Source: an uncultured Clostridia bacterium
GTDB taxonomy: Bacteria > Bacillota > Clostridia > Christensenellales > Aristaeellaceae
Reading direction: 5' to 3'
DNA: 64,000 nucleotides
Assembly (NCBI GenBank): GCA_947166385.1
Contig: CAMVEB010000010.1
Span: forward strand, 44,233-108,232
Shown here: piece after piece, positions 2,739-63,529 of the stretch
How positions within the stretch are numbered: position 1 is the stretch's first letter
Layout: every line of letters begins with the position of its first letter
Made by a program: the position numbers and the translations under genes
Notes under the pieces: model-generated
The model's database searches: none
The model's input: only the letters and a program-made list of their open reading frames with translations
Told to the model about the DNA's origin: nothing

Positions 2739-5123
2739 TTAATCCTCCTGTTTCTTGGGGGACTTCTTCCGGCGGATGATAAACAGCACTCCGCTCACGA
2801 GAATGAACCCGGCTCCCAAGATCATCAGGCCGGTAACAGCCATCTGTACGCCCGTCTGAATCACGGTGTAGTTGACCATGTGCGGCATGGTTTCAGGGAT
2901 TACGTAGTTTTCATCCATGACGACCTTGATGACTTCGCCGGAAACACTGAAGCCTTCCAGCGTTTCGATTTCCTTGATGTAGTACACGCCGCTGTCCTGA
3001 ACGGTGATGCTGACAATGCCGTTTTCGTCAGACACGTATTCGCCCAGGCTTGTTCCTTTTTCATCTTCCAGGCGGAACTTGACGCCAGATAGCGGATTGC
3101 CACTGGAATCAGTCTTCAGGAATTCATAGTGGTTCGGAATGTTCACGCATTTGATCATCTCCGGTGCTTTCCACTTTTCATCCACATGGATCACGATATC
3201 CAGCAGCCTGCAATAGCCTTCAGGCACCTTGCTTTCACGGATAATCCAGTCGCCATAACCGAACTTGGTGAAGGTCAGGCAACCATCCTTATCAGTTTTC
3301 AGCGTTTCAACGATTTCGGCAGTGTTGGCGTTCATGAGAACAAACTCAATGCCTTCCATGGGCTTTCCGGAGGTATCAGTCTTCTGCAGCGGCAGTTCCT
3401 GCGGAATGTTCACAAATCCCTGTGTCGGTTTTTCGGGATTGACGTATTTCTCGTTCACAGTGACGATGTTTTCTTTTGTGGAGAGCAGATAGCCATCCGG
3501 AGCTTTGGTCTCGCGTACCGTATAGCGGCCCTGCTCCACATGGGTGAAGCTGATTATACCGTCTTTATCGGAAACAGCGGTCATTACCAGTTTGCCTTCT
3601 TCGTTGAACAGTCCGAACTCGGCATCAGCCAGGGCTTTTCCATCCTGGTCAACCTTCTGCATCAGGATCTCTGTGGGAATATTGTTGATAATGGCCAGTG
3701 GTTCCTTCGGATTGATGAAGGTGCCATCCACAGTCACGGGCACGCGGGTATAGTCACGGACATAACCCGGCAGCGGTTCCTTTTCCTGAATGTAGTAGTC
3801 GCCATAAGGCACCTTTTCAAAGGTCGCAAAGCCTTTTTCATCGGTAACAGCGGTCTTGACCAGATAATTGGTATCCGTTGCGTACAGTCCAAACTGAACT
3901 CCCGCCAGAGGCTTACTGGCTTCATCTACCTTCATGATATAGAAGCGGGTGTAGTCATCCGTCACATGAGTGCGGCCGTCCACCTTACCCTCGGAATCCA
4001 CTGTGAAGGAGAACTCGGTCACACACAGTTCATAACCTTCCGGCGCCAGAACTTCCTTATATGTGTACTTCCCGGGCAAAGCAGGGAACGCAGGCACAAA
4101 CCCGTCTTCGCCGGTATAAGCCTTGCAGACGACTTCGCCTTCTTCGTTCCTGACCTCAATCAGCGTATTCGGCAGATAATCAGATCCGGCAATATCCAGC
4201 TTGGCAATTCTGGGAGTACCGTGAACGATCTCATCGATAATGGGAGCCTCGAGTGTGAATTCGCAGATTCCCTCGTCCGTAAGCTGTTTCCGGTCGATAT
4301 CGATATGGTAAGCGGCTTCGTTGATCTTCCACCCGTCCGGGGCGGCGATTTCTTTCAGCGTATAGTGTCCATGCGGGAAGTTCCCGGCAAAGGAAGCTTT
4401 GCCGTCCTTATCGGTCACTGCTACACCGACCAGCGTTCCCTTGGGAAGAGATCCGCCGACATACTTGATCTCTTCATGGTTATAGAGACCGAAAACAAAG
4501 CCTTCGCCCGGAGCGGTTTCAATTTCGCTGGAAACCAGCCCGTTGTCATGCTCTTTGGTTACGATGACCTGCTTTGCTTTTGAAAAATTGATCTTTGCGG
4601 GCAGGAATTCATCTGTAACGCTGACTGTTTCGATCACCACAGGCGTTTTCTGATCCGCGGCCTGAAGCAGTACATCATAGCGGTTTTCATCCACCTTGTA
4701 CCCGGCAGGAGCGCTTTTCTCTACAATGTAGTAGTGCCCCAGCGGAAGCAGCGGGCTTTCATCCTTACCCTCGGCGGTTGTCGTGATGGTTGCGGCGACT
4801 TCATCAGCCTTAAACCATTTGGTTCCTTCTTTGCCAACGATGTCTTCCACGGCACGGATTTCATAAACAGCGCCTTCAAGGTATCCCTCATGATAGTCAG
4901 GCGCATAAACGGTGAACCCGGTGGAATCCTGGGATTCCACGAAACCGGTCAGTACCATGCCTGTCTTTTCCAGGATGATCTTGCCCTTAATAGGCGTATT
5001 CGTAACAAAGATCTCCTGAGTGGTTTCATTCACTTCTTCGCCAAAGACGGCTGCCGGAAGACAGACAAGCAACAGCAGCAGGCTCAGAATCAGCGCGGTG
5101 AATCCTTTTCTTGTGATATTCAT
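2739..5123 (-). CDS. SpaA/Cna-B repeat surface protein with C-terminal membrane anchor
   Basis: 794 aa; signal peptide; repeated Cna-B-type modules (e.g. KTDSSGNPLSGVKFRLEDEKGT...YYIKE); C-terminal VIQTGVQMAVTGLMILGAGFILVSGVLFIIRRKK (hydrophobic helix plus basic tail). Confidence 0.9.
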   Translation of the reverse strand: MNITRKGFTALILSLLLLLVCLPAAVFGEEVNETTQEIFVTNTPIKGKIILEKTGMVLTGFVESQDSTGFTVYAPDYHEGYLEGAVYEIRAVEDIVGKEGTKWFKADEVAATITTTAEGKDESPLLPLGHYYIVEKSAPAGYKVDENRYDVLLQAADQKTPVVIETVSVTDEFLPAKINFSKAKQVIVTKEHDNGLVSSEIETAPGEGFVFGLYNHEEIKYVGGSLPKGTLVGVAVTDKDGKASFAGNFPHGHYTLKEIAAPDGWKINEAAYHIDIDRKQLTDEGICEFTLEAPIIDEIVHGTPRIAKLDIAGSDYLPNTLIEVRNEEGEVVCKAYTGEDGFVPAFPALPGKYTYKEVLAPEGYELCVTEFSFTVDSEGKVDGRTHVTDDYTRFYIMKVDEASKPLAGVQFGLYATDTNYLVKTAVTDEKGFATFEKVPYGDYYIQEKEPLPGYVRDYTRVPVTVDGTFINPKEPLAIINNIPTEILMQKVDQDGKALADAEFGLFNEEGKLVMTAVSDKDGIISFTHVEQGRYTVRETKAPDGYLLSTKENIVTVNEKYVNPEKPTQGFVNIPQELPLQKTDTSGKPMEGIEFVLMNANTAEIVETLKTDKDGCLTFTKFGYGDWIIRESKVPEGYCRLLDIVIHVDEKWKAPEMIKCVNIPNHYEFLKTDSSGNPLSGVKFRLEDEKGTSLGEYVSDENGIVSITVQDSGVYYIKEIETLEGFSVSGEVIKVVMDENYVIPETMPHMVNYTVIQTGVQMAVTGLMILGAGFILVSGVLFIIRRKKSPKKQED

Positions 5124-5211
5124 TCGTTTTTATACCTCGTTTCATTGTCGTTATGGGCATAAGAAAGGGACAGCAGGGTTTTCCGCTGCCCCATATTCCG
5201 ATTCAATGCTT

Positions 5212-7215
5212 TCATTCGCCCGGCACCTTGATTGTGACTTCGTATCCGTCATCAATGTAGTCATCCGGAACATGCGTTTCCGCGACCTTGTACTCGCCCC
5301 AGGTAAGCAGCGGGGTTTCAGCGAAGCCGTTCTCGTCTGTTGTCAGGACAGCAACGATCTCTCCGACATCCTCACCATTATGGGAAGGCAGGCCTTTGAC
5401 GCGGGTCACCGTGAAAACAGCACCCGGAAGCCCTTTTTCCGTCTCGTCATCGGTTTTCACGATCTTGATCTTTCCCTGGAGCGGCATGTTTTTCACCGTG
5501 CGTTCAATAGTTTTGTCCATGATGACCGTGATCTTTTCGCTCCACAGGTTATACTTGTAGCCGACAGGGTTTTCGTGTTCCTTAACCAGGTAATCACCAA
5601 CCAGCAAATCCGGGGACGTTGCAATACCGTCATCGTTCGTCACCATGGTGGCGACCACATCGCCTTCGGTTCCGTCATCCTTTACGGCATAGATATCGAA
5701 CTGAAGGCCGGCGATCGCGTGACCGTCCAGTTCGTCGATCTTCTTGATCTTGATCCATCCGGGAGCATCCTCGTTCACAACCGTATCCAGCACCTTGATC
5801 GGATTGATGTAGGTTCCGTCAACATTTAGTCTCCATGTGTTCTTTGAAGCATGGAATCCATACGGTGCGGAGATTTCCTTAATGGTGTACTTGCCATAAG
5901 GAATCTTTTTGAACTGAACAATACCGTCAGCACCGGAAGTTGCTTCCATGATCTTTGCGCCTTTTTCGTTGTACAGGCCAAACACACAGCCCTCGAGAGG
6001 ATCGCCGTTTTCACGGGTTTTTAGCAGTTCAACATGGTTCACTTCATCCTTGATCGTGGTATGACCGATGACTTTGCCATCCTTGGTGACCGTGAAATCC
6101 ATGATCGCCACATTCAGCGCATAGCCCTCAGGCGCATAGGTTTCCTTGAAAGTGTAATTGCCCGGAACAACAGGAATGTCCGGGATTTCACCGTTCTCAT
6201 TTGTGTACTCGCGGTAGATCAGCGTTCTGTTCTCATCGTAAACCTCGATCAGCGCACCTGGCAGTTTTTCAGCACCGGTAATGTCTGTCTTGGTAATGGT
6301 CACAGGAATATAGATCAGTTCGTTCAGAACCGGCTCTGCAAGTTTCACCACAATGGTGTTTTCATTGGCAGCTTTGTTTGCGGAGGTCAGAACCACAGGA
6401 AACTTCTGAGTGCTCAGTTTCCAACCGTCCGGCACCGCCAACTCTTTCAGATAATAATTGCCATGCGGATACAGTCCGGAAATGGTCAGATTACCGTTCT
6501 TATCTGTTTTCGCGGTGGCCATCAGGGTGTTTGCGGGCAGCTGCTGGTTGTTGGCATAGTTGATGACGGAACTGTTATACAGGCCGAAAACAAAGCCTTC
6601 GCCGGCAACGACTTCAATCACCTGATGAACCATGCCGTTTTCCAGATTCGTGATCTTAGTCTGCTCTTTCTTCTTCTCCAGAGAGACCTTAATCGGCAGA
6701 TAAGTATTGGAAGCGGAAACCTTCACTTCAACCACGGCTGTTTTCTTGTCGATCGCGGCCAGGGTGAAATTGCAGCGCTCTGTGCTGTACACATAGCCGT
6801 CAGGCGCGGAAACTTCCACCAGGTAATACTTGCCCAGCGGCAGCAGGCTGGATTTCACGGAGCCCGTGCTTGTCGTTGTCAGCGTTTCGATCTTCTGATC
6901 TTTCGTATAGAAGGTCGTTCCTTCTTTACCGACGATGTCCTCAGCTGCGTGCAATTCGAACTTCGCACCGGCCAGATAGCCATTCTCATATACAGGCTTC
7001 ATAATCGAATAGCCGTTGGCGTCTGTTTCATTCTGGAACCGAACCAGCTGCAGGCCTTTCTTTTCCAGCATTACATCGCCGCGAACGGGGGTGTTTGTCA
7101 CATTCAGCGTGACTGTGACCGTATCATCCGCTGCAGCAGTGGTGAAATTCAGCCATGACAGCAGCATTACCAGCGCCATGAAAAGATGGAGAAATCTGTT
7201 TTTGTTCATATGCAA
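5212..7215 (-). CDS. SpaA/Cna-B repeat secreted protein without recognisable C-terminal anchor
   Basis: 667 aa; signal peptide; repeated Cna-B modules; ends ...DDGYEVTIKVPGE with no hydrophobic helix. Confidence 0.88.
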   Translation of the reverse strand: MHMNKNRFLHLFMALVMLLSWLNFTTAAADDTVTVTLNVTNTPVRGDVMLEKKGLQLVRFQNETDANGYSIMKPVYENGYLAGAKFELHAAEDIVGKEGTTFYTKDQKIETLTTTSTGSVKSSLLPLGKYYLVEVSAPDGYVYSTERCNFTLAAIDKKTAVVEVKVSASNTYLPIKVSLEKKKEQTKITNLENGMVHQVIEVVAGEGFVFGLYNSSVINYANNQQLPANTLMATAKTDKNGNLTISGLYPHGNYYLKELAVPDGWKLSTQKFPVVLTSANKAANENTIVVKLAEPVLNELIYIPVTITKTDITGAEKLPGALIEVYDENRTLIYREYTNENGEIPDIPVVPGNYTFKETYAPEGYALNVAIMDFTVTKDGKVIGHTTIKDEVNHVELLKTRENGDPLEGCVFGLYNEKGAKIMEATSGADGIVQFKKIPYGKYTIKEISAPYGFHASKNTWRLNVDGTYINPIKVLDTVVNEDAPGWIKIKKIDELDGHAIAGLQFDIYAVKDDGTEGDVVATMVTNDDGIATSPDLLVGDYLVKEHENPVGYKYNLWSEKITVIMDKTIERTVKNMPLQGKIKIVKTDDETEKGLPGAVFTVTRVKGLPSHNGEDVGEIVAVLTTDENGFAETPLLTWGEYKVAETHVPDDYIDDGYEVTIKVPGE

Positions 7216-7224
7216 TATCCTCCG

Positions 7225-9675
7225 TTATTTGATCCACACAGTAACGGTATATCCGGAATCCAGATACCCGTCAGGAACACCGGTTTCTGTAATCCTGTAC
7301 TCGCCCCAAGGAAGCAGACCGGTCTCGGCAATGCCCTGAGCGTTTGTGGTAATGGTTGCAACAACCTGACCGATGTTCGAAGCATTATCCGATTCAGGCC
7401 CGGACAGACGGGTCACGGTGAAGGTAGCTCCTGCCAGAGGCTTATGCGTCTGGGAATCGGTCTTCACAATGCGTACCTTGCCGGAAATTCGCTTATTGGT
7501 GAATGTACTCTTCGTCACTGAACCGGCAACGACCGTCACGTTTTCGGAAGAAGTGGCAGCCAGGTTATATCCCTGCGGAGCTGTCTTCTCACGGACTGTG
7601 TAGGCACCGGGCTCCAGATCGGTGAACTTCGCAACACCACTGGCGTTTGTGGTCGCGGTTTTGATTACCGTACCGTTTTTCAGCAATTCAAAAACAGCAT
7701 TCTTCAGGAGAATGCCGTCATCGGATTTCTTCGTGACTTCGATCTCACCAAGGGCCAGCTCAAAGGTCACACTGCCTTCCTTCAGGGGATACGGAGATCC
7801 GTAAGTCGGCACTATAATCTTCTGAATGGAAACCTCAGGAACGCCAACCAGGAAATTGGCTTCCTCTGAATCGGAGGAAATGGATTCCATGGTTACCGTG
7901 AACTTCCGCTCTGTGGAAGTAACGCTGATAGTGTCTCCACTCTTGGCGTAGTAGTAGCTGCTGTCAGATCCGCCGGTGTTTCCGGTCAGCGTTCCGACGC
8001 TCTTGGGAATTCGGATCAGATCAGCATCCGTGCTGACGGTGACCTTTCCAATATAATTGGTGCCGGAGACTGTCATGCTCGCATCGGAGAAGGTGATCTT
8101 ACCGGTGATCTTGGAACGGGCAATGCCGTTAGCCGCCAGCCAACGGGCGTAGGTCAGGTAAACAGCGGGAGCGCCGCCGCTGAAAGCATAGAAGTTATCC
8201 ATATCCCAGTAGCTGCGTACGTACTGAGAGCCTTCCAGCTGCTTGATTACTTCGCGCATGGCGAACTGACCGGCGACACGGGACCAGGTATTGTTATGGG
8301 CGTCACTGCGATCAAGCACCATGAAGGGATAGGTATGCCGTAGCACCCAGGCCAGGGCATGCATTGTTTTCTCGCTGAAACGAACGCCTGTCACACCAAC
8401 TCCGGCGCTGGTGTTGCAGAAGGAATCCATATCAACCAATACATACGGACCTTTGGGGGCCTGATTGCTTCCGGAACCTTCACCAGGGCCGTCCTGTGTG
8501 TGCTCCAGACAGTAAACCTCGAAACCTTCCAGATAGTGCGGGGTTGCGTAAATCGTGCCGTGGGCGGATGATTTCGCAATCTGCGGATAATCGCTGTCTT
8601 TACCGGAGCTGCCGTTCAGTCCACTTTGCCATTCCGTAAAACTGCCCAGGCTCACATGGATTTCTTTCAGGGTGAATCCATCCATCGCGGTAGGACTAAA
8701 AGAACGCAGCGCCTTTCTGCCAGTGGAAGTGCGCCGCTGCAGCTGTTCTTTGGTGTAGGCATAATCGGTTACGGTGCAGGCGGTCTTGTCAGTATCCTGG
8801 GTTTCCTTAGCCAGTACATAGACTGAACCGTAGGCTGTCCACTTCAGGGAACCGTTCTTGAGCTCGTCGCCATACAGATACCGGACTTTGTACCAGTAGT
8901 CACCATTGGCATCCCGGAGGACATCCTCGATCTGAACAACGGCATCACGAACAAAAACGCCGACAAACAGATCGCTTGTGATCCGACTGGATTCGTCCGA
9001 TTTATCCATATCCGTGAAAACCCAGGTGTCTTTGGTCACATGCACGAAGTCACCAGCCTGATGAGGCGGGAGTTCCTCCGGTTCTTCTTCCTCAGGCTCT
9101 TCTTCAGGTTCTTCCGTCAGCTCTTCAGTCGTTTCCGGTTCCTTTTCCGGTTCTTTTTCCGGCTCTTCGGTCGGTTCCTCAACCGGATCGTCCGTGGGTT
9201 CAGTGTCCAGATCCTCCAGAGAAATTCCTGTGGGTACAATCACCAGATCCTCGAGGAGCTCGGGCGTTTCATCCTCGGATTCTTCAGAAGGCTCTTCGAC
9301 AGGTGTAATCGGACTGATAGGTTCGTCTACCGGTTCATCTGCCGGTTCTTCCGTTTCGTCTGCCGGATCATCCTCATCTTCGGGGATGTCTTCATCTTCC
9401 GTCAGATCTTCATCTTCGGGAAGATCGGAGTCATCCTCATCGGGAGTATCCTCGTCTTCGTCAGGAAGGTCCCCGTCATCATCCGGCGCTTCTTCCGGTG
9501 CGGCACTGAGAAGTGTTTCGGCCTGGACAATCTCAATCTCTTCATCCATAATGACGGAAAGTTCAGTATCACTTTCCAGCGGTTCTTCGGTTTCCGGCGT
9601 TTCAGCCAGGGAAACAGTGCAGGAAAGCAGCATAATCAGGGAAAGAATAAATGTCAGAATACGTTTTGCTTTCAT
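7225..9675 (-). CDS. Large secreted adhesin: acidic E/P/D-rich stalk, thioester-like domain, C-terminal Cna-B modules
   Basis: 816 aa; signal peptide; acidic low-complexity EEPEEE tract; VYCLEHTQDG and VAGQFAMREVIKQ resemble the Cys and Gln segments of a thioester (TQXA) domain; two C-terminal Cna-B modules. Confidence 0.8.
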   Translation of the reverse strand: MKAKRILTFILSLIMLLSCTVSLAETPETEEPLESDTELSVIMDEEIEIVQAETLLSAAPEEAPDDDGDLPDEDEDTPDEDDSDLPEDEDLTEDEDIPEDEDDPADETEEPADEPVDEPISPITPVEEPSEESEDETPELLEDLVIVPTGISLEDLDTEPTDDPVEEPTEEPEKEPEKEPETTEELTEEPEEEPEEEEPEELPPHQAGDFVHVTKDTWVFTDMDKSDESSRITSDLFVGVFVRDAVVQIEDVLRDANGDYWYKVRYLYGDELKNGSLKWTAYGSVYVLAKETQDTDKTACTVTDYAYTKEQLQRRTSTGRKALRSFSPTAMDGFTLKEIHVSLGSFTEWQSGLNGSSGKDSDYPQIAKSSAHGTIYATPHYLEGFEVYCLEHTQDGPGEGSGSNQAPKGPYVLVDMDSFCNTSAGVGVTGVRFSEKTMHALAWVLRHTYPFMVLDRSDAHNNTWSRVAGQFAMREVIKQLEGSQYVRSYWDMDNFYAFSGGAPAVYLTYARWLAANGIARSKITGKITFSDASMTVSGTNYIGKVTVSTDADLIRIPKSVGTLTGNTGGSDSSYYYAKSGDTISVTSTERKFTVTMESISSDSEEANFLVGVPEVSIQKIIVPTYGSPYPLKEGSVTFELALGEIEVTKKSDDGILLKNAVFELLKNGTVIKTATTNASGVAKFTDLEPGAYTVREKTAPQGYNLAATSSENVTVVAGSVTKSTFTNKRISGKVRIVKTDSQTHKPLAGATFTVTRLSGPESDNASNIGQVVATITTNAQGIAETGLLPWGEYRITETGVPDGYLDSGYTVTVWIK

Positions 9676-10776: not shown

Positions 10777-11718
10777 TCATCTGGATTGTTCCTTTTCCCG
10801 CTGCCTTTTCAGGTAGTTTTCCAGGAGCTTGATAATGATCTGCTCAATCTTCTGGATGGAATAGGATTTGGGAAAGTACTTTTTCAGCGTATCATGGCTC
10901 AGCGTGATGGAGTCCCGCAGCGGCTTCTTCTCTTCCATCATGATGTCAGTGAGCTTTTCCTTGGTTGCTTCGCCGCTCTCGCTCATTTTTCGGATGCGCT
11001 GCGCCTGGGAAAGTGACGGAGTGTTCTGCGTTTCTTCCAGAGCAACGGCAACATCTCTCTGCTCAGATGGATTCAAGTAAGAAAGTTCAACAGCGGGAGT
11101 CAGCGCCAGCCGCCCTTCATCCACCATTTCTTGTAGTTCCGGATTTAAGTTATTCAGGCGGATTAAGCGTTGAATTTGCTTTCTGCTGTCCGGCGAATTT
11201 TCTGCCACAATATCAATACTACGTCGACCATCTAACTTGTGGCCATCATGGCCACAAGTTAAGTCGCTTCTCTGACCTTGATGTTTCAAGGCTTCCAGCT
11301 TCATCTGATACGCCTTGGCTCTTTCAGTGGGAGGGATCTCATCCCGCTGCTGGAGATTGGAATCGACCATCAGAATGGTGGCTTCATCGTTATCCAGGTT
11401 CCGGATAAGCACAGGTACTTCCTCAATCCCGGCCAGTTCACAGGCGTGTTTGCGCCGGTGACCGGAGATGATCTCATATCCGCCGCCGTCGAGAGGCCTT
11501 GCAATAAGCGGAATCATGACCCCGAATTCCTTAACGCTCTCTACCATTTCCATCATGCGCTTGTCATCGACAACGCTGAAGGGATGATCTTTAAAAGGAA
11601 ACAGCTCTGTGATCGGAATCTTCTGAATCTGCTCCGGCGCGGCACCGTTTCGACTTTGCTCCGTGGAGAAGATATCATCGTATGGGGTCAGGCTTATGTT
11701 TGATCCGTTCGGCTTCAT
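10777..11718 (-). CDS. parB: ParB-family partition protein
   Basis: 313 aa; PLIARPLDGGGYEIISGHRRKHACELAGIEEVPVLIRNLDNDEATILMVDSNLQQR is the ParB/Spo0J nuclease-like core. Confidence 0.95.
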   Translation of the reverse strand: MKPNGSNISLTPYDDIFSTEQSRNGAAPEQIQKIPITELFPFKDHPFSVVDDKRMMEMVESVKEFGVMIPLIARPLDGGGYEIISGHRRKHACELAGIEEVPVLIRNLDNDEATILMVDSNLQQRDEIPPTERAKAYQMKLEALKHQGQRSDLTCGHDGHKLDGRRSIDIVAENSPDSRKQIQRLIRLNNLNPELQEMVDEGRLALTPAVELSYLNPSEQRDVAVALEETQNTPSLSQAQRIRKMSESGEATKEKLTDIMMEEKKPLRDSITLSHDTLKKYFPKSYSIQKIEQIIIKLLENYLKRQREKEQSR

Positions 11719-12496
11719 GCTGCATCACCTCCTTCGTCAGAGCGTGATACGCATTGGCGACTTTGCCGCCGGGATCGTGTTCAAAGATACTTTTCCCTTC
11801 AGAACTGATCTCAGCCGCACGGACGGAATGAGGGATCTCTGTTTCAAACACTTTGATCTTACCGCCGTATGTGTCACGGATCAGGTTGCTGATCATCCGT
11901 GCGTTGTTTGTCCGGTTATCCACCATTGTCAGCAGAATCCCGTCTATCTCAAGCTTTGGATTGATCTGCCGCCGTACCTTTGCAATGGTTTGAAGCAGCT
12001 GCTCCAGACCTTTTGCGGAAAGGTAGTTTGCCTGAACAGGAATGATCACCTTGTTGGAAGCGGCCAGTGCGTTAATGGTCAGCATGCCCAGGGAAGGCAT
12101 ACAGTCGATCAGGATATGATCGTAATCCTTCCTATATTCATTCAGGACATACTTGAGCATTGATTCCCGGCTCATGGCGTTCACCAGAGAAACCTCCGTC
12201 CCGGCCAGCGCGATGCTTGACGGCATTAGATCCATGCCCTCAGGGTGATGGATAATGCCTTCGCCGGGGACGGGAGTTTGATCGTTCATAACCTTGGTCA
12301 TGAGATCAGCCAGTGTGACCGGAAGGTTATCCGGCTGCGGATTGCCCAGGGAAATCGTCATGGATGCCTGCGGGTCTGTGTCCACCAGAAGAACTCGCTT
12401 GCCCTCCTGTACAAGCGCAGCGCCCAGATTGACGCAGCTCGTGCTCTTTGCAACGCCGCCTTTCTGGTTCACAAGCGCCGTTACTGTGGGGGCCAT
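11675..12496 (-). CDS. parA: ParA-family ATPase
   Basis: About 274 aa; VNQKGGVAKSTSCVNLGAALVQEGKRVLLVDTDPQASMT, deviant Walker A; overlaps the parB start. Start codon choice (12496 or 12502) uncertain. Confidence 0.95.
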   Translation of the reverse strand: MAPTVTALVNQKGGVAKSTSCVNLGAALVQEGKRVLLVDTDPQASMTISLGNPQPDNLPVTLADLMTKVMNDQTPVPGEGIIHHPEGMDLMPSSIALAGTEVSLVNAMSRESMLKYVLNEYRKDYDHILIDCMPSLGMLTINALAASNKVIIPVQANYLSAKGLEQLLQTIAKVRRQINPKLEIDGILLTMVDNRTNNARMISNLIRDTYGGKIKVFETEIPHSVRAAEISSEGKSIFEHDPGGKVANAYHALTKEVMQHEAERIKHKPDPIR

Positions 12497-12962
12497 AGGC
12501 ATACCTCCTCCATAACCGGCTTCACATACGCATCAACGTATATGATGATGAACAATCCGTCTGTGATGATTAGGATTACCATAAGCAGCCTCCTTACAGA
12601 ATAGAATAGAAAAAGCACCGGCGCGTATTGCGTCGATGCCCTCTGCCAAACCTGGCACGATAACATTATCAGACTTTTCCCCTTCAATCAATAGCGCATC
12701 GTATGCAATTTTGTCTCATCGTTTAGCGTTCAGTCTCAAATTTTCAGGAAAATGGAAAAAAGATGCTTTTCAAACGAAAAATCTGCGGATCATTCTTCAG
12801 AACAGGTCGATTCCATGGTATACTTTCAGGGATTAGAAAACCCATCCGGAGCTTACGTTATAACGTTTTCACCGAGAGAGGTTATGAAGGCCATTTGTTC
12901 CCCGGGATCGGCTAAATAGATCAGATGTTGACACAATGCGGCTATGCAGATTGTGAGAGAAT

Positions 12963-13559
12963 ATGGAGAACAGAATTATAGAGGAAGCGATAGAGTACAT
13001 CCGGACATTGTTCCAGGGGAACAGCGACGGACACGACTTTGATCATACAATGCGAGTTTATCATACAGCCATGGAGATTGCGGATTCTGAGCCCCGTTGC
13101 AACAGATTAATCGTAGCCCTGGCAGCGCTGCTCCACGACGCGGGTGACTATAAGCTGTTTGAAACGAAGAACAACGCGAACGCCAGAGCTTTTCTGGACT
13201 CTCAGAATATTGATGAAGCAACGGCTTTGCAGATCTGCATGGCCATCAACTCGGTGTCCTTCAGCAAAAACAAAGGCAGATGCCCTGAATTGCTCGAAGG
13301 TAAGATCGTTCAGGATGCTGACAGGCTGGATGCCATCGGAGCCATAGGCATTGCGAGGACTTTCGCTTACGGCGGGAAGCATAGCAGAACACTGGATTCG
13401 TCCATCGAGCATTTTCATGAGAAACTGCTTCTGCTGAAGGCTATGATGCATACGGAAAAAGCGAAGGAACTGGCTGAAAGTCGTCACGCGTTCATGGAAA
13501 GCTTCTTACAAGAATGGGAAAAGGAGCAAGGCAGTAATGAATGTAAAAGCCATCTTTGA
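12963..13559 (+). CDS. HD-domain phosphohydrolase
   Basis: 198 aa; GHDFDHTMRVYHTAMEI...ALLHDAGDY...QDADRLDAIGAIGIAR HD signature. Confidence 0.88.
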   Translation: MENRIIEEAIEYIRTLFQGNSDGHDFDHTMRVYHTAMEIADSEPRCNRLIVALAALLHDAGDYKLFETKNNANARAFLDSQNIDEATALQICMAINSVSFSKNKGRCPELLEGKIVQDADRLDAIGAIGIARTFAYGGKHSRTLDSSIEHFHEKLLLLKAMMHTEKAKELAESRHAFMESFLQEWEKEQGSNECKSHL

Positions 13560-13995
13560 TCGTTATAAAGTCACCGTAGAGGATGATAAGTGCTTTGACC
13601 TAATACGTCAGATCCATGTCAAAGCGACGCCGGAAGAGATTGTTCGCCAGAAGACAATCAAGTATTTGATGAAACGTCTGGAAGTCCCGCAGGCAAAAAT
13701 CATCATTGAAAGATCATTGGGCTCTTTGGGCGTGAAAGGCAGCAAAAAAAGGATTGATATCGGAATACTTGATGAGAATGACCTTATTATGGCTGTAATT
13801 GAATGCAAGGCTTCCTTGTTGGGGATTGATGAAGCTGCGCATGCGCAAGCAGAGGACTATTTTAAGCTGCTGAATACGCGGTATTTCTTTGTGACCGATG
13901 GAAATACATTCACAGGATACTTTTATAACACGGTTCAGTTTATCAGGCTTGAAGAAATACCAAAGTATAAAAATGCCCTGACAGGTTGTAAATGA
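13537..13995 (+). CDS. HsdR N-terminal-like (type I R subunit N-domain) nuclease-fold protein
   Basis: 152 aa; KTIKYLMKRLEVP...KRIDIGILDENDLIMAVIECKASL (D-x-ExK) and YFKLLNTRYFFVTDGNTFTGY; overlaps upstream HD gene by 23 bp. Confidence 0.75.
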   Translation: MNVKAIFDRYKVTVEDDKCFDLIRQIHVKATPEEIVRQKTIKYLMKRLEVPQAKIIIERSLGSLGVKGSKKRIDIGILDENDLIMAVIECKASLLGIDEAAHAQAEDYFKLLNTRYFFVTDGNTFTGYFYNTVQFIRLEEIPKYKNALTGCK

Positions 13996-14745: not shown

Positions 14746-14985
14746 TTATCCTCCGTTTTTTTTCTTTGCTTTCTCTTCGATATAGTCAATCAATGCCAGG
14801 AAAATATGGCCTGCCAGCGGATGATTGTCCCAGGCAGCGCATACCTTACCCATTTCCTGCACCGTCTGAAGCCACCAATCAGGAGCGCACTCATCGCTGT
14901 TGGCCGGCGGATTGCAGTGCGTTTTCAGGAAAATAAAGGCATGGCGCATGATTTCACGTTCTTCCGATGTCAGAGTCTGTTCCAT
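14746..14985 (-). CDS. Small protein of unknown function
   Basis: MEQTLTSEEREIMRHAFIFLKTHCNPPANS...IEEKAKKKNGG, collinear between neighbours; overlaps the 3' end of the primase-helicase ORF. Confidence 0.55.
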   Translation of the reverse strand: MEQTLTSEEREIMRHAFIFLKTHCNPPANSDECAPDWWLQTVQEMGKVCAAWDNHPLAGHIFLALIDYIEEKAKKKNGG

Positions 14986-17029
14986 TTCCTGCGTCCTCCT
15001 TAAAGGGAAAACCTTCGATTTCATTCATGTCTACCTGTGTGAAACCTTCCGCCCAGCTGTATGCGGGCACTCCGCCTCTGATATCCGTCATGGTCTTGCA
15101 TGTGCCGTCGAAATAGAGAAGAATCATTTCATCCACAACACCGAGATCACGGTTTTTCATGATTTCAATCGCATTGCCGACATCCGGGGCAATGTTCAGC
15201 TTCGGATAGATCTCTTTTACCCTGGTGAGGAAATCGTTATTCACCCGATGTACCATGAACACGTTGTCCGCTGTGTTGCTCAGGTCGCCGGTGCCGCTGA
15301 TATCATTCTTCCGCAGGAACGATTCCGTCTTTCGCGGATGGCAGATAAAGTGGATGTGAACATTCAGCTGCTTTGCCGCCTGTGAAAGGGTCTGAACGAT
15401 TTGAGACTGGATCTCATACTTGTCCGAGGTTCCGACAGGCAGGTTCAGCGACATCAGATTGTCTATGATGACAACATCAGACCCCTTTTCCTTCACCCAG
15501 TTAAAGATGACCGATGCTACAGTTTCCCAATTGCTGCCGTAATCGTTGTTGTAAATCGCCAGCGATCCGCTCAGTCGTTTGTTCAGGTATTCCTTAATTC
15601 CGGCTTTCAGGCGGTAATGCCGGGGAGACAGTGGGTCTTCCTCCACATTGTCCCGACCGGCTGCCTGCAGATACAGCCAGTACTTGACAAGCTTTGGCGG
15701 CATCTCGCCGGAGAACATGGCAACCTTATATCCCTGGTGAACAGCTGTAAGACCTAGCTGACTGACCAGTGTCGACTTGCCGGAAGAGTTTGATCCCGAC
15801 CAGATCGAGAGCTCGCCCTTGTTGAATCCGCCGATCAGCGCGTCCAGCTTTCCGAGCTTGGACTGAATAGTGGTGATTTTGCTGCGGTCATAGTCTTCAA
15901 CATCGGCAATGTCCAGCATCGTAGGCTTCTGAACGACTGCCGGGGCCTGCTGCACAGCTGTGGCGGGAGCAGCCGTCTGCGAAACCTGTTCGCTGCCGTT
16001 TGAGATTCGCGGCAGCGGAGCGACCTGCTGAGCCTGAAACACACTGTTGGAATAAGCGGAAGGATCGACTTTCGCCCGAAACTCATGCCAGCCAAAGCCT
16101 GAGCAGCCATTGTGAAAACATTTGAAGCCTAACCGCCCGTCGTTTGAGACAAACACAGCCGAATCCGGTGCCTTGTGATCACTGTTGAAAGGGCATTCCG
16201 ACAGGATGTACTTGGTCAGGTTGCCGCTTTCGATCTTCCGGGCCACGCTGATATTGTGGCTGGCCAGGAAAGAATCCATATCGAACGGAGTCGAGGCATA
16301 TCTGTTCGATAAAGTACTCGAGGGCGTCATCTTTTCCCACTCGCCGGCAACCGCTCTTACAAGCGCCATGGGTGTAGGCTGAATGGGGTTCGGCGCGTGA
16401 AGAATCTTGCTTTCCCTGTGGGGACGTTCGGGAGAATTCGCGCCTTTGCGGGCAACCGTGCCGTAGAGTTTCGTGATTCTGGCCGGGTTGTAAACCGCTG
16501 TGTCAATCTGTACCGCTTCGGAAGAGAACCACAGATCCAGCACTTTCAGGAACTGGGAAATGATATCTTTGCTTGAAATCTCTGCCTTGATCTTGTACAG
16601 CAGGTGATAACCGTTTCCGCTGTCGGCGGCGATCGGTTCGCTGAATCCCAGCTTTTTCAGGTGCAGATAGACAGCCCTGGCTGTTTTACGGGCTTGTTCT
16701 TTTTCACCGTCTGTGGCGCTTACGCCGGAAGGACGAACGGGATCGGCATCAATCAGAATCCAGCTGTAGCCGATAATGTCCCGATCTGAGGTCGTTTCCT
16801 TGGGATTGGGCATCAGGACTTCCCGCTGCGCCCGGGAATAACAGCCCGGATCAATGCAGTTCATGGTCTGATAAAAGGTACGGCCCTTATAACGTGCAAG
16901 TTGCTTTTCGATATTGGCGCTGTTTGCCTTAAAAAGCCCGCTGATTGTAGGCTTAGGATCAATGCTGCGGATCTCGATAACATCTTCCGGATCATGAAGC
17001 AGCAGAAGACTACTCAGTATTCCGTCCAT
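14954..17029 (-). CDS. Primase-helicase-like replication protein (zinc-binding motif plus RecA-like ATPase)
   Basis: N-terminal primase-like region (GYSWILIDADPVRPSGVSATDGEK, DSGNGYHLLYKI), zinc-finger-like CPFNSDH...CFHNGC, Walker A SGSNSSGKSTLVSQLGL, Walker B VVIIDNLM. Start MDGILSSLLLL at 17029. Confidence 0.85.
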   Translation of the reverse strand: MDGILSSLLLLHDPEDVIEIRSIDPKPTISGLFKANSANIEKQLARYKGRTFYQTMNCIDPGCYSRAQREVLMPNPKETTSDRDIIGYSWILIDADPVRPSGVSATDGEKEQARKTARAVYLHLKKLGFSEPIAADSGNGYHLLYKIKAEISSKDIISQFLKVLDLWFSSEAVQIDTAVYNPARITKLYGTVARKGANSPERPHRESKILHAPNPIQPTPMALVRAVAGEWEKMTPSSTLSNRYASTPFDMDSFLASHNISVARKIESGNLTKYILSECPFNSDHKAPDSAVFVSNDGRLGFKCFHNGCSGFGWHEFRAKVDPSAYSNSVFQAQQVAPLPRISNGSEQVSQTAAPATAVQQAPAVVQKPTMLDIADVEDYDRSKITTIQSKLGKLDALIGGFNKGELSIWSGSNSSGKSTLVSQLGLTAVHQGYKVAMFSGEMPPKLVKYWLYLQAAGRDNVEEDPLSPRHYRLKAGIKEYLNKRLSGSLAIYNNDYGSNWETVASVIFNWVKEKGSDVVIIDNLMSLNLPVGTSDKYEIQSQIVQTLSQAAKQLNVHIHFICHPRKTESFLRKNDISGTGDLSNTADNVFMVHRVNNDFLTRVKEIYPKLNIAPDVGNAIEIMKNRDLGVVDEMILLYFDGTCKTMTDIRGGVPAYSWAEGFTQVDMNEIEGFPFKEDAGNGTDSDIGRT

Positions 17030-17745
17030 GCGGATCGCTCCTCTCTTTCGCTCAGGTCGATATAGTCTTCCCATTTTCCGTCAAGCCATTTTGCTGCCCT
17101 GGGGATATACTTGCCGTTATCCTGAAGCCATTCTCTGGAGCACTTTGCGTTCTCCAGTGCCGCAATCAGGGTTTCTGTCGGCACTTTCATCTCCATCCAG
17201 GCTTTTCTGGCCGCGGATTTCTCCTCATGCCGGGGGTATGCTTTCCAGAAGATTTCGAAAACCTGGTCGCGGTAAGAAAGTGTTCTTGGTCTTTCTTGGT
17301 TATATTTTTGGTTGTGCTCATTTCGTGGGCAGCCAATGCCCATATCGTGAGCAGCTACGTTCATATCTTGGGCATTTGTGCCCATATTGTGGGCAACTGG
17401 GCTTGTCGGCATGGCGGTTGCTGGCCTGACATTCTCCTGACAGATCTCACTCCAGCCGATCACCGTGTACAATGCTCCGTCAGAGTTGCGAGAAACGCTG
17501 ATGAGTCCTTTGCAGAACAGGGATTCAATGTGCTTTGCTGTTCCGTTTCTGCTCCATCCGAGGGCTTTTGCGATACTGACAACGGACGATTGAAACTGTC
17601 CAGGCTTCAGATGTCCGTAAAAGTTATGGCTGGCGCGAAGCAGAAAAAAGAAATACAGTGCCGCATCATATCCGTCTTCCCAGATACGCGAATCCAGAAT
17701 GGTTCTGGAGATTTTGACAAAACCCGTAGGTTCCATGTTATTCAC
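17014..17745 (-). CDS. Phage-type replication initiator/replisome organizer-like protein
   Basis: 243 aa; wHTH-like N-terminus (FVKISRTILDSRIWEDGYDAALYFFFLLRASH...IAKALGWSRNGTAKHIESL) and C-terminal FWKAYPRHEEKSAARKAWMEM...YIPRAAKWLDGKWEDY common in phage/ICE replication proteins. Confidence 0.8.
   Translation of the reverse strand: MNNMEPTGFVKISRTILDSRIWEDGYDAALYFFFLLRASHNFYGHLKPGQFQSSVVSIAKALGWSRNGTAKHIESLFCKGLISVSRNSDGALYTVIGWSEICQENVRPATAMPTSPVAHNMGTNAQDMNVAAHDMGIGCPRNEHNQKYNQERPRTLSYRDQVFEIFWKAYPRHEEKSAARKAWMEMKVPTETLIAALENAKCSREWLQDNGKYIPRAAKWLDGKWEDYIDLSEREERSAWTEY
17316..17395. repeat. Four 16-bp iteron-like repeats at 21-22 bp spacing inside the replication-initiator gene
   Basis: GCTCATTTCGTGGGCA (17316-17331), GCCCATATCGTGAGCA (17338-17353), GTTCATATCTTGGGCA (17359-17374), GCCCATATTGTGGGCA (17380-17395). 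Confidence 0.85.
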
Positions 17746-17802: not shown

Positions 17803-18525
17803 TCAGAAGGGAGTATCCTGATCATCGGTATAGTGCATCGGAAGCAGAGATGCTTCAGGCGCGTACATTGTGGGTGAGACGACTGGAGCAGTCGGCGGTA
17901 TCGCTTCCGGCATGGGAGGAATAGCGCTTGCAGGGATAACAGGAGCAATCGCTTGCTGGATCGTATCCGGAATCTGTCTTGCCGCGGATGAAACAGGTGG
18001 ATAGCCCTGGACGATATGGGATGCACGGCGCTTCATGGGACGGAATGTTCCATTGCGGATCACGGAAACAGGAATGAATTTGCCGATTTCTGTAAAAATG
18101 CAGCCGTTGTATTCGTTTTCCCGAACAGAGATTCCGACCGTCATTCCTTTCAGGGAATCGGTGTTCCAGTTCCAGTTGAATCCTGGATTGCTTGCCATGA
18201 TTGCTCCCATAGTCAGATTGAAGCGGTCCAGCATCCACAGATCTTCCTGCTGAAGATTGTTGGTCGGGCAGAAAATCCTGTAGACTCCGCGGTAACGGGC
18301 CGGATACTGGCCGCCTTCCTGCGCACGGTAGTCCTTCAGGAAAAATCCGGCATACGGGCCTTCCGTGATTTCCACTGTGAAAACCAGCATCTGGTTTCCA
18401 TCAGCACGGTTTTCCGCACGGGCATCCTGGATCACAGCGATATAACCGCCAACCGGCAGCTGTGCGCGGAACTGTTCCTGCATGGGCCTGAAGCCGTTGA
18501 AGGGATTCACATTACTCATCTTCTT
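17803..18525 (-). CDS. DUF669-like (possible ssDNA-binding) phage/ICE protein
   Basis: MSNVNPFNGFRPMQEQFRAQLPVGGYIAVIQDARAENRADGNQMLVFTVEITEGPYAGFFLKDYRAQ...NWNWNTDSLKGMTVGISVRENEYNG, typical of DUF669-type proteins in replication modules. Confidence 0.65.
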   Translation of the reverse strand, partial: KKMSNVNPFNGFRPMQEQFRAQLPVGGYIAVIQDARAENRADGNQMLVFTVEITEGPYAGFFLKDYRAQEGGQYPARYRGVYRIFCPTNNLQQEDLWMLDRFNLTMGAIMASNPGFNWNWNTDSLKGMTVGISVRENEYNGCIFTEIGKFIPVSVIRNGTFRPMKRRASHIVQGYPPVSSAARQIPDTIQQAIAPVIPASAIPPMPEAIPPTAPVVSPTMYAPEASLLPMHYTDDQDTPF

Positions 18526-18832
18526 CATCCTCCTCATTTCCGTCAGTCAGAAGCATTGGAGCGATTATCGTTTCCAGGACTTGTATCTGGTTCATCCATG
18601 CCTTTCGCATATAGCAGCGAACGCAAATGTACTCTCGAGCAAAAAAGTTCGGGCTTTCCCTTGATGGGAATACAGCATCAATCATTGAAAACGTCTTTCC
18701 GCACCGCGTGCACGTGGTAAATGTGTTTTCAATGGTTACTCCGAGAATCTCTCCGGGTGCTACGTCTTTGGGTACCTTGATAAAAACCACTTTTTCGTCC
18801 TCCTTTTGGGGGCCGTTTTTTTTGCCCCTCAC
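18512..18832 (-). CDS. Small CxxC zinc-binding-type protein
   Basis: 106 aa; CTRCGKTF...YICVRCYMRK two CxxC pairs; acidic C-terminus. Confidence 0.6.
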   Translation of the reverse strand: MRGKKNGPQKEDEKVVFIKVPKDVAPGEILGVTIENTFTTCTRCGKTFSMIDAVFPSRESPNFFAREYICVRCYMRKAWMNQIQVLETIIAPMLLTDGNEEDEEDE

Positions 18833-18954
18833 TTGATGTGGTAAAAAATCGCTGTTTTAAGTCACTTTTTGAAAAATTTCTTTGAATAAAATTGAATCCT
18901 TGTGCTTACCAACAGGGATGAGCCCTTTGTTTTCAATGCTTGCAGGCTTATAGA

Positions 18955-63452: not shown

Positions 63453-63529
63453 TGGCACACCCGGCGGGATTCGAACCCACGGCCTGCCGCTTAGGAGGCG
63501 GCCGCTCTATCCTACTGAGCTACGGGTGC
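63453..63529 (-). tRNA. tRNA-Arg (anticodon CCT), CCA encoded
   Basis: Minus strand: GCACCCG-TA-GCTC...GAGC-G-GCCGC-CTCCTAA-GCGGC-...-GTGGG-TTCGAAT-CCCGC-CGGGTGT-GCCA folds as a cloverleaf. Confidence 0.95.

Follow-up and report, generated by a model that had tools for sequence, protein, structure and literature searches.

Does the gene for a putative replication initiator on this 64,000-nucleotide stretch of Clostridia DNA (hereafter the window) also contain the origin at which that initiator acts? The original prediction proposed that an iteron array inside the gene is a candidate origin. A matching array in the closest intact relative, further arrays in related initiators and statistics on out-of-frame conservation all support this proposal, and as far as sequence comparison can carry the claim we back it with high confidence. 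We put the probability at roughly 80% that the host, an integrative and conjugative element (ICE), has within its initiator gene a replication origin of the lambda type.

Four dyads and an AT-rich tract in the initiator gene

The initiator probably starts at the ATG at 17736, judging by its alignment with L071, the closest intact relative (rumen MAG RUG13087), whose initiator is 44% identical overall. It matches phrog_270 over residues 21-235 (E=1e-17), with the profile covering most of the protein, and also phrog_2514 and phrog_186 (DnaD-like); the match to the lambda O family, phrog_345, is marginal (E=3.8e-4) and confined to the N-terminal region. No Pfam family, PF06970 (RepA_N) included, matched at E<=1, and there was no NCBIfam match. 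The AlphaFold model (mean pLDDT 57) is confident only in a winged-helix-like N-domain, with pLDDT of 71-87 over most of it; the linker that holds the array is disordered and the helical C-domain is poorly modelled. A PDB fold search returned generic winged-helix matches, none below E=1e-3, and weak Foldseek matches to 4pt7 and 4pql. The modelled structure thus weakly backs the origin reading. The helicase gene that overlaps the initiator (Table 1) matches DnaB_C (E=3.8e-15) and the primase/helicase profiles phrog_19 and phrog_239.

Table 1. Positions of replication, array and partition features in the window
Feature	Position	Strand	Remarks
Replication initiator gene, PHROG_270-like	17014..17745	-	N-terminal winged-helix domain, linker, C-terminal domain
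Primase-like / DnaB-family helicase gene	14954..17074	-	Overlaps the 3' end of the initiator gene
Accessory gene, weakly SSB/DUF669-like	17803..18537	-	Upstream of the initiator; syntenic in L070/L071
Iteron 1, TGCCCACAATATGGGCA	17379..17395	-	Dyad 6/6
Iteron 2, TGCCCAAGATATGAACG	17358..17374	-	Dyad 3/6
Iteron 3, TGCTCACGATATGGGCA	17337..17353	-	Dyad 5/6
Iteron 4, TGCCCACGAAATGAGCA	17315..17331	-	Dyad 5/6; read in a different frame
AT-rich tract, candidate unwinding element	17274..17309	-	Begins 5 bp from the array end; has ACCAA(G/A)A direct repeats
ParA partition gene	11675..12502	-	
ParB partition gene	10777..11718	-	

Four 16-mers had been placed at 17316, 17338, 17359 and 17380, and all four are found there, in the linker between the winged-helix N-domain and the C-terminal domain; the repeats themselves stand, although the true unit is 17 bp, TGCCCA-N5-TGGGCA, rather than 16 bp. 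Their description as imperfect dyads holds: the arms pair at 6, 3, 5 and 5 of 6 positions, and the poor arm of one copy counts somewhat against the origin reading. The peptides had been read correctly, with AHNMGTN, AQDMNVA and AHDMGIG in phase and a one-base frame slip at the fourth copy giving CPRNEHN. Spacing on the coding (minus) strand is 21, 21 and 22 bp; we speak of near-two-turn spacing for distances of 20-24 bp only, the phasing of longer spacings not being decisive. At up to 3 mismatches the motif has 3 matches in the 64-kb window, all of them in the array, against 0.12 expected (0/100 shuffles), and of 127,836 window positions on the two strands only the array itself attains the summed dyad score of four sites so spaced. 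Neither the rest of the window, the region upstream of the initiator gene included, nor the 48 kb of contig next to it has another cluster of the motif.

The array is followed, 5 bp from its end, by an AT-rich tract that the original prediction had not mentioned and that, at 28% GC, is the lowest 36 bp of the gene. All 11 genes compared (ten initiators and lambda O) have, from the end of the array onward, a low-GC 36-bp stretch that ranks in the lowest 0.1-2.9% of the gene's windows, with array ends set by the analyst from the listed sites. Within the tract, the block at 17282-17305 is conserved out of frame in L071: the post-array sequence ATATAACCAA(G/A)AAAGA is common to both genes at 15/16 bases in different reading frames (0/150 shuffles). 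By analogy, this candidate unwinding element completes a lambda-like layout. The most AT-rich part of the replication module is an intergenic stretch at 18855-18901 (17% GC), upstream of the gene at 18512-18832, which could be a promoter or an alternative unwinding site; because it is the lowest-GC stretch of the module, unwinding could take place there rather than in the tract beside the array.

The same dyads might instead be an autoregulatory operator, with which the initiator blocks transcription through its own gene or limits copy number, while the origin lies elsewhere, for example near 18.9 kb. Helically spaced dyads would suit any dimeric winged-helix regulator, and a lower-GC region is present at 18855-18901. 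However, the sites lie mid-gene and far from a promoter, the motif does not cluster upstream of the gene, and in every one of the 11 genes compared above the array gives way to a low-GC tract, as at oriLambda. We consider the operator unlikely. Initiators often serve as both regulator and origin binder, and for that reason an operator role is in any case compatible with the origin reading.

The host element and its diverging relative

The element that carries the gene is an ICE, or a conjugative element with the same organisation, and not a phage. We call it so because of the gene content of its contig (C10) and of the window, and because of the coupling protein and relaxase in related genomes. 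C10 encodes a tyrosine integrase, a MobA/VirD2 relaxase, a topoisomerase, a CD1107-like mobile-element protein, an NlpC/P60 hydrolase and a VirD4/TraG coupling protein, so that the integrase, the relaxase and the T4SS coupling protein all lie on a single uninterrupted stretch; gene order continues in the window with DUF3801, SpaA-type proteins, a sortase and ParB/ParA, followed by the helicase and the initiator. In related genomes the coupling protein is on the initiator's contig, and in most of them the relaxase is there too. A search for attachment-site direct repeats at the element ends returned only 13-14-bp matches at chance level, none convincing, and the sole tRNA in the window, at 63453, is far from the element end.

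A relative in genome G237 is syntenic with the window element, with identities of 85-95% for the SpaA-type proteins, 89% for ParA, 81% for ParB and 69% for the helicase. Its initiator is only about 45-50% identical to that of the window, and its iterons are entirely different. Because the backbone is alike while initiator and sites have diverged, origin specificity appears to change faster than the backbone, and the two elements amount to a natural specificity swap. The G237 gene (L070, about 4240-4330) is a near-identical copy of the L071 gene in which the fourth site and the AT-rich tract are missing, a point against the origin reading, but the copy is also frameshifted there; either its origin and initiator are broken or the assembly is wrong at that point. 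The SpaA-domain surface proteins that G237 shares at such high identity are three large ones, encoded with the sortase at 2739-9675 of the window. Between ParA and the replication genes, the window has two plus-strand genes at 12963-13995, the second HSDR_N_2-like; these look like inserted cargo because the corresponding interval in G237 is only about 350 bp long.

The presence of ParA and ParB about 5 kb away raises the alternative that the element's own ParAB use the array as their partition centromere, since iterated dyads are common in centromeres and canonical parS was not found elsewhere in the window. However, the comparison with G237 shows ParB to be 81% identical where the array sites differ completely, so ParB specificity does not track the sites. 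With no canonical parS and sites that do not follow ParB, we reject the centromere as highly improbable.

Constraint on the DNA and replacement of its sequence

In the window array the constraint acts on DNA and not on the peptide. We shuffled synonymous codons within genes, preserving protein and codon usage, and scored mutually out-of-frame 16-mer repeats. The window initiator scores 9 against a shuffle maximum of 8, so that 0/1000 shuffles reach it, which upholds statistically the earlier claim that the motif is conserved as DNA while its translation changes. The L071 initiator scores 10 (1/1000 shuffles) and lambda O 11 (0/1000), whereas neither lambda P (685/1000) nor any of 20 other window genes is significant. 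At a threshold of 2/200 or better, a wider census found 22/32 initiators significant, lambda O among them. Among 121 intended control ORFs 8 scored, of which 5 were the matched initiator ORFs themselves and 1 was lambda O; these six were assigned as initiators by coordinates after the result was seen and are counted as initiators, and with them removed 2 of about 115 non-initiator control ORFs score. Because lambda O and other initiators were flagged unprompted in the control set, the test could serve to look for intragenic origins on a large scale.

Absence of repeats from homologous linkers had been named as evidence against an origin, and differing iteron sequences at the same site as something to look for. 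The proposal withstood this check. At the matching position L071 carries four copies, GGTCAGATTATGACC, GGTCAGATTATGACA, GGTCAGATCGTGACC and GGTCATATTGTGACC, with the same spacing as the window (21, 21, 22); copies 1-3 share a reading frame (GQIMTFE, GQIMTHA, GQIVTPR), and the fourth falls in a different one (GSYCDPY). The half-sites are TGCCCA/TGGGCA in the window and GGTCA/TGACC (GGTCA-N5-TGACC) in L071. Because both arms have changed together, the dyad has been kept while its sequence was replaced.

A helicase-primase of 56-71% identity over nearly its full length occurs in six other genomes of the taxonomic family, and a seventh (G225) has a 75% fragment. Besides G237, the other five of the six (G163, G101, G049, G168 and G295) encode it beside divergent initiators. 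Related ICE initiators in G101, G295, G049, G010 and G163 have linker arrays of their own at the equivalent place, with GG(C/T)NCC-type dyads in the linkers of G163, G101, G295 and G049; the G168 linker has weaker dyads, among which a 12-bp tandem repeat is interspersed. In G163 there are ten sites, whose spacing is 23 and 22 bp in turn, which puts successive sites in two strictly alternating frames (WPNNQA / GSEIRP), and G101 and G295 have six sites each in alternating frames. Viral contigs scanned with the window initiator, with the helicase and with two alignments gave no confirmed relatives. A second class of array, which repeats about every 10 bp (one helical turn) and is also conserved out of frame, is seen in the linkers of L039, L040, L057, L012 and L024. 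The genome that holds the window encodes a second PHROG_270-type initiator (L004, G000:C71), with few detectable dyads and a clear AT-rich tract.

These data leave little room for two further explanations. That the heptapeptides (AHxMGxx) are a protein-level repeat, with the likeness in DNA a by-product, is scarcely credible: three of the four copies are in phase, but the fourth is out of frame in both the window and L071, none of 1000 synonymous shuffles reproduces the window score, and relatives alternate frames throughout. Chance or simple, functionless tandem duplication is just as implausible, for although linkers tolerate repeats and some related linkers hold low-complexity ones, the dyad score is reached only at the array, L071 retains the layout with its sequence replaced, and significant scores are common among initiators and rare among the controls.

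Known intragenic origins and a proposed mechanism

An origin inside the initiator gene is established for lambda (PMC7466680, PMC3985674) and for SPP1 gene 38 (PMC6316719), and has been proposed for staphylococcal 80alpha ORF20 (PMC5499656). The lambda origin consists of iterons, which are 19-bp imperfect inverted repeats, and then an AT-rich tract (PMC7466680). Like the window locus, oriLambda in gene O has four imperfect-dyad iterons in the linker at about two-turn spacing (20, 24 and 23 bp), in several frames (three in lambda O), before its AT-rich tract. The two differ in iteron sequence, in the carrier (a conjugative element here, a phage in lambda) and in the partner, which is an element-encoded DnaB-type primase-helicase here and the P loader in lambda; similarity between the two initiator proteins is only marginal. 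The precedent first cited, iterons within initiator genes of lambdoid phages, is sound for lambda O, but restricting it to lambdoid phages is too narrow, as SPP1 and probably 80alpha are alike. In published descriptions (PMC6316719, PMC5499656), SPP1 gene 38/oriL and probably 80alpha ORF20 resemble the layout proposed for the window locus: the initiator, of Firmicutes, has in its own gene both the origin repeats and an AT-rich unwinding element, and a helicase is encoded nearby. Unlike the window element, both are phages, and SPP1 has a second origin, oriR. Intragenic iteron origins are thus already known, and the candidate described here is carried by an unexpected type of element, an ICE; in the open-access literature we found no paper that reports an origin of this kind on a comparable ICE.

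RepA_N initiators bind semi-palindromic iterons and occur on conjugative transposons too, where they are suggested to have gained other roles, as such elements need not replicate (PMC7145576). The RepA_N plasmid initiators of pSK41 and pTZ2162, as well as PLE RepA, bind semi-palindromic iterons through a winged-helix N-domain, a layout similar to that proposed for the window, and the weak Foldseek matches to 4pt7 and 4pql count as a further likeness. Unlike them, the window initiator does not match PF06970 and has a C-terminal domain in the PHROG_270 / primosomal-protein group. Why ICEs carry replication initiators is an unsettled question.

By analogy to lambda O, winged-helix dimers of the initiator would sit next to one another on the four dyads and wrap the DNA, the filled array would cause the adjacent AT-rich tract to melt, and the C-terminal domain would load the element's own DnaB-family primase-helicase, after which the excised circle could replicate autonomously. 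The linker peptide would serve as a flexible tether, which would leave its frame and sequence free to follow the DNA sites. We are evenly divided on the broader proposal that autonomous replication from intragenic origins of the lambda type is shared by a family of Clostridia ICEs, whose initiator and origin, being one locus, shift specificity together. If it is true, iteron differences between similar ICEs would look like sorting into incompatibility groups. A constrained, intact candidate origin in the initiator gene argues that these ICEs replicate as circles, and it offers an 80-120-bp target for tests. The locus makes both ICE replication and the co-evolution of origin and initiator directly testable.

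In the G049 initiator (L023), the iteron at 1220-1236 includes CCTCAAAACGAGG, 13 bp identical to the core of lambda iteron 1 and found at the corresponding point of the gene, a match that may reflect either ancestry or convergence.
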